A stretch of 64,000 bases of DNA from Thioalbus denitrificans (GTDB lineage: Bacteria > Pseudomonadota > Gammaproteobacteria > DSM-26407), in assembly GCF_003337735.1 (NCBI RefSeq), contig NZ_QPJY01000001.1:550650-614649 (forward strand), written 5' to 3'. A model generated the notes under the pieces. That model saw only the letters and a program-made list of their open reading frames with translations. It was not told the DNA's origin and did no database searches. This document shows positions 49,486-51,522 of the stretch, in pieces. How positions within the stretch are numbered: the stretch's first letter is position 1; every line of letters starts with the position of its first letter. Both the position numbers and the translations under genes were made by a program.

Positions 49486-50346
49486 TCAGGCGGGAACGAC
49501 GGCCAGGCGCAGCTTGCGCAGGGCGTTCTGCTCCAGCTGGCGGATGCGCTCGGCGGAGACCCGGTACTTGTCGGCGAGATCCTGCAGGGTGGCCTTCTCG
49601 CCGTCGGTCAGCCAGCGGCGCTGGATGATCTCCTGGCTGCGCTCGTCGAGGCCGGCGAGACTCTCCTCGAGCCGGGCCAGGCTGTGCTCGCGCCAGTCAT
49701 CGCTCTCCGCCTGTTCGGCAGGATCGAAGCGGCGGTCTTCCAGGTAGTGGACCGGCGCGGGCGGCGCGTGATCGTCGCTGTCCTCGCTGTGGCCGTCGAA
49801 GGCGGCGTCGTGGGCCGCCAGGCGGGCCTCCATCTCCAGGACCGTCTCGGGCTTGACCCCCAGGTCCTTCGCCACCGCGTTCACCTCCTCGCGGGTGAAC
49901 CAGCCGAGGCGCTGCTTGGCGTTGCGCAGGTTGAAGAACAGCTTGCGCTGGGCCTTGGTGGTGGCCACCTTGACGATGCGCCAGTTGCGCAGGATGAATT
50001 CGTGCATCTCGGCCCGGATCCAGTGTACGGCGAAGGAGACCAGGCGCACGCCCACGTCCGGGTCGTAGCGCTTGACCGCCTTCATGAGGCCGATGTTGCC
50101 TTCCTGGATCAGGTCGGACTGCTGCAGGCCGTAGCCGTTGTAGCCGCGGGCGATGCGGACCACGAAGCGCAGGTGGGACATGACCAGGGCGCGGGCGGCG
50201 TCCAGGTCGTGCTCGTCGCGCAGCCGCAGCGCCAGCTCCCGTTCCTCCTCGGCGCTGAGCATGGGCAGCCGGTTGACGGCCTCGACATAGGCCTCCAGGC
50301 TGCCGGTCGGCAGGCTCATCTCCAGTTTCTGTAACGCGGTGCTCAT
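49486..50346 (-). CDS. rpoH: RNA polymerase sigma-32 (heat-shock sigma factor)
   Basis: 286 aa. Region 2 ([36 protein letters not shown]), the RpoH box QRKLFFNLR at 133-141 that sets it apart from other sigma factors, and region 4 ([20 protein letters not shown]). ATG at 50346 with GGGAGG five bases upstream; the frame extends further up as non-conserved sequence. A perfect CIRCE element stands 74 bases upstream. After ftsX, as in E. coli ftsY-E-X-rpoH. Confidence 0.97.
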
Positions 50347-50419
50347 AGTCCTCCCGGCGGCACGTTGAAACCCCGCGTCACCCTTGCGGGTGCCCGGGGT
50401 CCGGTCGTCTGACCCGATT

Positions 50420-50446
50420 TTAGCACTCACGGAGTGTGAGTGCTAA
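50420..50446. promoter_or_regulatory. CIRCE element (HrcA operator) upstream of rpoH
   Basis: TTAGCACTC, nine bases, GAGTGCTAA: a perfect match to the CIRCE consensus TTAGCACTC-N9-GAGTGCTAA. It lies between ftsX and rpoH, 74 bases before the rpoH ATG, and suggests repression of rpoH by HrcA. Confidence 0.92.
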
Positions 50447-50496
50447 GGGGGGTGAAAAGTTCCCGTCACGGGGTCGGCGTAATCCCCGGGGGCGGC

Positions 50497-51518
50497 TCAG
50501 GTGGGTTCGATGGACTTCAGGTGGCGACCCACGGCGAGCCAGGCCCCGGCCAGGCCCAGCACCACGGCGAAGGCGAGCAGCGCCAGCACCTCGGTCGCGG
50601 CGAGGCCGCGCAGGGTGAAGCCGCTCTGGTAGAGCAGCGCCAGGCGCTGGACCGGGGCATGCAGCCAGCCCAGCGACAGCGCCACCAGCAGCCAGGCCAC
50701 GCTCCCTCCGGCCAGGCCGTACCAGAGACCGGTATAGAGGAATGGCCGGCGCACGAAGCCGTCGGTGGCGCCCACCAGCTTCATCACCACGATCTCCTCG
50801 CGCCGGTTCTCGATGGCCAGCCGGATGGTGTTGCCGATGACCAGGATCACGGCCAGGCCGAGCAGGGCGCCGATCACCATCACGGCCCGCCACACCAGCT
50901 CCATGAGGGCGTAGAGCCGCTGGATCCACTCCAGGTCCAGCCGGGCCAGCTCCACCCCCGGCAGCGCCTGCAGCTCCTCGCGCAGTCGCTCCAGCGCCTT
51001 GGGCTTGGCTACCTCATCTGCCGGGCTCACCACCAACGTGGCCGGAAGGGGGTTTTCGCCCAGGCTGTCGATGGCGATGTCGAGTCCCGACGCCTGGCGG
51101 AACTCCGCCAGCGCCTCGTCACGGGTGATGTAGCGGACCGAGGCCACCTCCGGGCGCCCTTCGATGCGCCGGGCCAGTCCGCGGGCCTCGCTGTCGGGGA
51201 CGCTGAGCCGCAGGTAGAGGGAGATCCGGGCGGCGCCCTCCCAGGTGTCGCTCAGCTGCCGGGCGTTGGCCAGCACCAGGTGCAGGGCCGCCGGCAGGGC
51301 CAGCGCGATGCCGAGCACCAGCACCGTCATCAGGTTGCCGAGCGGCGCGCGGACCAGGCGGCCGAGGCTGCCCACCAGGGCCTGCAGGTGGTGGGTGAGC
51401 CAGGTCCGGGGCAGGCGGCGCCAGGACGAGGCTTCCCCGCCCCGTCGCTGCCGGCGCTCGCGGGGCGGTTTCCGGGCCCGCTCCGGGGAGCGGCGTTCCG
51501 GCTTGCGGGTGGCCATGC

Positions 51519-51522
<4 letters not shown>
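50497..51522 (-). CDS. ftsX: Cell-division ABC permease FtsX
   Basis: 341 aa. A long Arg-rich cytosolic N-terminus (about 45 residues), TM1 (NLMTVLVLGIALALPAAL), the periplasmic domain that signals to EnvC (encoded at 30.5 kb), and three more TMs with the FtsX domain (NTIRLAIENRREEIVVMKLVGA). Overlaps ftsE by four bases. Confidence 0.95.

Follow-up and report, generated by a model that had tools for sequence, protein, structure and literature searches.

The 64,000-nucleotide stretch of Thioalbus denitrificans DNA analysed here (the window) carries rpoH, the gene for sigma-32, on its minus strand, with the start codon ATG at 50346. Upstream of it, on the same strand, lie ftsX, ftsE and ftsY, and the order ftsY-ftsE-ftsX-rpoH is the gene order of E. 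coli. In the gap between ftsX and rpoH we found TTAGCACTCACGGAGTGTGAGTGCTAA, which agrees at 18/18 defined bases with CIRCE, the operator of the repressor HrcA (TTAGCACTC-N9-GAGTGCTAA), lies near a predicted promoter and stops 73 nt short of the rpoH ATG (Table 1). An earlier note on this DNA had reported a perfect CIRCE in front of rpoH, and the element was indeed recovered with no mismatch. It was the sole match in the window even when up to three mismatches were allowed, and 0/100 dinucleotide shuffles of the window yielded a CIRCE at that threshold, so that none is expected by chance.

Table 1. Features of the rpoH control region (window coordinates)
Feature	Position	Strand	Evidence
rpoH, sigma-32, 286 aa	49486..50346	-	TIGR02392 404.5 bits (cut-off 323), NF005143 427 bits
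ftsX, upstream neighbour	50497..51522	-	TIGR00439 373 bits
CIRCE, predicted HrcA operator, 0 mismatches, TTAGCACTC-ACACTCCGT-GAGTGCTAA on rpoH strand	50420..50446	-	pattern match and conservation
Putative sigma-E type -35, GGAACTT	50457..50463	-	sequence; GAAC in register in 20/33 rpoH vs 0/28 groESL CIRCEs
Putative sigma-E type -10, TCACA (TCnnA), spacer 17	50435..50439	-	sequence and conserved TCnnA bias
Predicted extended -10 of sigma-70 type, TGCTAAAAT (TAAAAT 50422-50417)	50417..50425	-	fused to CIRCE right arm; promoter scan
Weak sigma-70 -35, TTAGCA, 4/6	50441..50446	-	first 6 CIRCE bases; 18 nt before -10

When the search was extended to the whole 4.14-Mb genome (completeness 99.7%), three CIRCEs were obtained at two or fewer mismatches, and the reversed-pattern control gave 0. 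All three precede heat-shock genes, namely rpoH (0 mismatches), groESL (0, on contig 11) and hrcA itself (1 mismatch, on contig 7). The earlier note had left the presence of the repressor to be checked; a profile search of the genome returned hrcA at 325.7 bits, above the cut-off, so the objection of a genome without HrcA does not apply. The gene is followed by grpE, dnaK and dnaJ, these three being named from their translations. The gene rpoE is also present (325.9 bits), with CGAACTC-N16-TCTAC upstream of it, and the genome gave three weaker ECF-like sigma factor matches. Sigma-32-like promoters (TTGAA-N13..17-CCCCATnT) were found at five places in the genome and at none with the reversed control, and dnaK and clpB are each preceded by one of the five. 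An mraZ-like gene and an aminotransferase-like gene are likewise preceded by such promoters. The same genome-wide scan gave no match in the ftsX-rpoH gap, and autoregulation of rpoH by sigma-32 was rejected on this ground.

A search of the gap for a terminator or attenuator found none. Transcription could also read through from ftsYEX into rpoH and might bypass the operator. The predicted rpoH leader contains a stable GCAA-loop hairpin (50368-50401, minus strand), placed downstream of the promoter and ahead of the ribosome site. The possibility that the leader holds an RNA thermometer or a riboswitch was considered and rejected, with no Rfam match at E 1 and a fold z of -1.05 against shuffles.

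Predicted promoters overlapping the operator

The promoter scan of the gap gave a single sigma-70-like site, TTAGCA-18-TAAAAT (50446-50417), which is coextensive with the CIRCE. It scores 9/12 plus TG, where shuffles expect 0.0, and reads as an extended -10 with a tolerable -35 element. A second candidate promoter, of sigma-E type, begins upstream of the operator and runs into it, its putative -10 TCACA straddling the end of the CIRCE left arm (two bases) and the start of the CIRCE spacer (three bases). Its spacer of 17 nt departs from the usual value of 16.

Such an arrangement of GGAACTT, about 16 nt and TCnnA before rpoH, in a genome with RpoE, resembles what is found in enterics. In the hrcA-less Kluyvera and Lelliottia, GGAACTT-N16-TCTGA stands at about the same place before rpoH, without a CIRCE; it corresponds to the sigma-E dependent promoter P3 of E. 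coli rpoH. To our knowledge, E. coli and its relatives possess neither hrcA nor CIRCE, whereas the operator in the window takes in the -10 half of its putative sigma-E promoter. The exact sigma-E motif was not enriched in the T. denitrificans genome (4 matches vs 11 for the reversed control). The sigma-E promoter is thus proposed as a weaker part of the model than the rest, and it is the conservation described below that argues for it.

Distribution of the rpoH operator and its flanks

We looked for rpoH and CIRCE in 56 genomes of the class, almost every one representing a different family; 52 of them had a usable rpoH upstream region. An rpoH CIRCE was scored as present when it had at most three mismatches and lay within 400 nt before rpoH. 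By this measure it was present in 29/32 hrcA-positive families and in 4/20 hrcA-negative ones (Fisher, 3e-7); the rpoH target is conserved in families with hrcA and mostly absent without it, 16/20 hrcA-negative families being devoid of the element. Of the four exceptions, three come from assemblies that are 62, 81 and 86% complete, and the fourth, G017, is 97% complete. Conversely, a recognisable rpoH CIRCE was not found in three hrcA-positive genomes (G014, G027 and G038). The earlier note had treated the arrangement as something that happens "here"; the survey of relatives rejects uniqueness to this genome, since the link is class-wide; in 2004 it had already been predicted for another bacterium, Geobacter sulfurreducens (PMC545781).

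In a set of 80 named loci, rpoH was preceded by a CIRCE in Methylocaldum, Dyella, Rhodanobacter, Nitrosomonas, Pandoraea, Polynucleobacter, Trinickia, Uliginosibacterium, Halothiobacillus, Pseudoalteromonas luteoviolacea and a Geobacteraceae assembly, among others, and the loci from enterics, Vibrio, Aeromonas, Haemophilus and Shewanella lacked it. The CIRCE of P. luteoviolacea is perfect, although no CIRCE stands before rpoH at the loci of Vibrio, Shewanella and Glaciecola.

Several loci depart from the common form. A tandem pair of CIRCE-like elements precedes rpoH in G011 and G053, and in G011 both members of the pair carry TGCTAAAAT. In Lysobacteraceae and similar genomes (loci L041, L090 and L023) the operator is altered in both arms, to TTAGCAGTC-N9-GACTGCTAA or near, with GGAAC kept upstream; a possible explanation of these arm changes is a shift in HrcA specificity. 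One genome (G033) has two rpoH copies with a CIRCE at one only. In G017, where hrcA was not detected, a 1-mismatch CIRCE followed by AAT precedes rpoH, which may reflect either a relic or a missing contig.

Alignment of 79 rpoH CIRCEs revealed two conserved flanks in fixed register. On the right, nAT follows the right arm and completes TGCTAAnAT, which has the form of a sigma-70 type extended -10. On the left, many rpoH promoters carry GGAACTT some 16 nt ahead of the left arm, giving the sigma-E type GGAACTT-N15-17-TCnnA, in which TCnnA is again made of the last two left-arm bases and the first three spacer bases. For comparison, 28 CIRCEs that precede groESL and 12 that precede hrcA were brought into the same orientation and set beside 33 rpoH CIRCEs. 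GAAC stood in register in 20/33 rpoH, 0/28 groESL and 0/12 hrcA sequences; TGCTAAnAT was seen in 23/33, 1/28 and 2/12, and T as the third base after the CIRCE in 31/33, 3/28 and 6/12, respectively. The reverse was seen for TTGA about 20-32 nt upstream (rpoH 4/33, groESL 26/28, hrcA 2/12). A as the third CIRCE-spacer base, as TCnnA demands, was present in 23/33 rpoH vs 5/28 groESL CIRCEs. The sigma-E part is absent in about a third of hrcA-positive families.

A fresh search with the pattern GAAC-N9..13-TTRGCACTC-N9-GAGTGCTAA in 377 genomes found the composite in 121 of them, and the control gave 0. Its spacer was N11 in 99/121 sequences and the third CIRCE-spacer base was A in 106/121; all 121 genomes fell within the 280 that have hrcA (Fisher, 4e-20). 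When 30 of the composite loci were read, 28 lay before rpoH and 2 before groES; at least one further match, in G275 and outside these 30, lies beside hrcA and, like both groES ones, has odd spacing and lacks TCnnA. Because the flank counts differ between rpoH, groESL and hrcA, the composite is read as an rpoH trait, and groESL operators as following an ordinary promoter. Operator and repressor are the same at groESL as at rpoH, but at groESL the CIRCE begins where the -10 of an upstream sigma-70 type promoter (TTGAC...TATTA) ends, whereas the rpoH operator spans the promoters themselves.

A predicted circuit and its rivals

Since hrcA is present, the CIRCE tracks hrcA, and the element overlaps the one sigma-70-like promoter found in the gap, this predicted operator is best read as placing rpoH under HrcA control. 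We consider it likely that the CIRCE is a working HrcA operator gating rpoH, laid over a sigma-E type and a sigma-70 type promoter. With regard to the earlier note, which placed sigma-32 under HrcA control, the operator, the repressor gene, their co-conservation and the promoter overlap all hold, and the control itself stays a prediction; the operator had been recognised correctly, and the sigma-E type promoter that appears to lie under it had been missed.

A narrower version would have HrcA gate rpoH with the sigma-70 promoter alone under the operator, GGAACTT being inconsequential here or serving another ECF sigma factor. Several families do carry CIRCE and TGCTAAnAT without GAAC, genome-wide counts show no enrichment of the sigma-E motif by itself, and weaker ECF-like sigma factors are encoded; but the GAAC-CIRCE register fixed in 20/33 families, the TCnnA bias in rpoH and not in groESL spacers, and the presence of this motif about equally far from rpoH in hrcA-less enterics, where it corresponds to the known P3, make this version unlikely. 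Much less probable still is that the operator merely remains as a relic, rpoH now being controlled by ftsYEX read-through or post-transcriptionally. E. coli rpoH is controlled largely through translation and stability, and G017 retains its element where hrcA was not detected; against this, the 18 bases are intact at rpoH though the operator of hrcA itself has drifted by one, and the element is retained across some thirty hrcA-bearing families and mostly lost without hrcA.

We find it hardly credible that the inverted repeat acts as RNA, that is, as a leader hairpin for mRNA stability or translation (a thermometer) rather than as an HrcA operator. The palindrome can fold as a hairpin if the transcript starts upstream of the repeat, and the leader does hold the stable GCAA hairpin; yet the predicted sigma-70 start is downstream of the repeat, the leader folds no better than shuffles and is without an Rfam match, the presence of CIRCE tracks hrcA, which an RNA role would not need, and conservation is at base level, beyond mere pairing.

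For the preferred reading, an HrcA operator over two promoters, the following course of events may be proposed from the known biology of HrcA, sigma-E and sigma-32, from which binding, repression, GroE titration and promoter use are inferred. HrcA on the CIRCE would cover the -10 elements of both promoters, so that both polymerase forms would be excluded and sigma-32 would stay low. Heat or protein damage would draw GroE from HrcA, or inactivate HrcA directly, both routes of release being known from other bacteria; the operator would then empty and rpoH would be transcribed, with the sigma-70 promoter serving in general and the sigma-E promoter during envelope stress. Sigma-32 would in turn switch on its own targets through the sigma-32-like promoters, such as those before dnaK and clpB. 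HrcA would also repress hrcA-grpE-dnaK-dnaJ and groESL directly. Given HrcA operators at the dnaK operon and groESL and a sigma-32-like promoter before dnaK, the layout would be feed-forward, with dnaK under HrcA both directly, by the operon CIRCE, and via rpoH and sigma-32; restoration of HrcA by GroE would close a negative feedback. The description "wired in series", used previously, captures the predicted link from repressor to sigma factor and is incomplete, since HrcA operators also stand at hrcA-grpE-dnaK-dnaJ and groESL. With the operator built into two promoters at once, a single repressor probably gates the whole heat-shock response.

Relation to known systems and ancestry

The rpoH-CIRCE link is real, well conserved and of a known kind, and it is its breadth and layout that look new. 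HrcA/CIRCE control of rpoH was predicted for G. sulfurreducens by Rodionov et al. (2004; Table 8, PMC545781), with a perfect CIRCE at -51, where hrcA-grpE-dnaK-dnaJ and groESL also have CIRCEs; the paper gives groESL as the sole constant member. That prediction concerns one deltaproteobacterium, with no promoter overlap described in the accessible part of the paper, whereas the link seen here occurs in most hrcA-bearing families of the class and comes with the sigma-E/sigma-70 composite. Helicobacter and Campylobacter likewise combine two heat-shock regulators in one circuit, by double repressor control through HspR and HrcA (PMC6032397, PMC7464140); there both are repressors, and here a repressor would control a sigma factor. 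AlgU, the sigma-E of Pseudomonas, has been tied to heat shock through RpoH (PMC7641640), and the accessible text of Leyn et al. (2016) has metabolic regulators as its subject. In the literature searched, which covered few subscription papers, neither the gammaproteobacterial breadth nor the sigma-E overlap was found described, and an earlier beta- or gammaproteobacterial report is possible.

The comparison with enterics may be read simply as an old sigma-E promoter from which, in enteric rpoH, the CIRCE was lost together with hrcA. Whether the composite of CIRCE, sigma-E and sigma-70 promoters goes back to the ancestor of the Gammaproteobacteria, including the former Betaproteobacteria, as their original rpoH control region, with E. 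coli P3 without a repressor as the remnant after HrcA loss, is in our judgement an even bet. If it does, the E. coli layout would be what HrcA loss left behind, and the post-transcriptional control that model organisms exert on sigma-32 may have taken the place of an older gate at the level of transcription; that gate would have brought GroE status and envelope stress together at a single operator. Textbook sigma-32 control derives from organisms without HrcA.

The fused layout offers a simple test case for one repressor silencing two forms of RNA polymerase, and GAAC-N11-CIRCE-nAT a strong sequence signature for the annotation of rpoH control. If most hrcA-bearing beta- and gammaproteobacteria do gate rpoH by HrcA, the repressor and sigma branches of the heat-shock response would be one circuit, and E. 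coli would be the special case.
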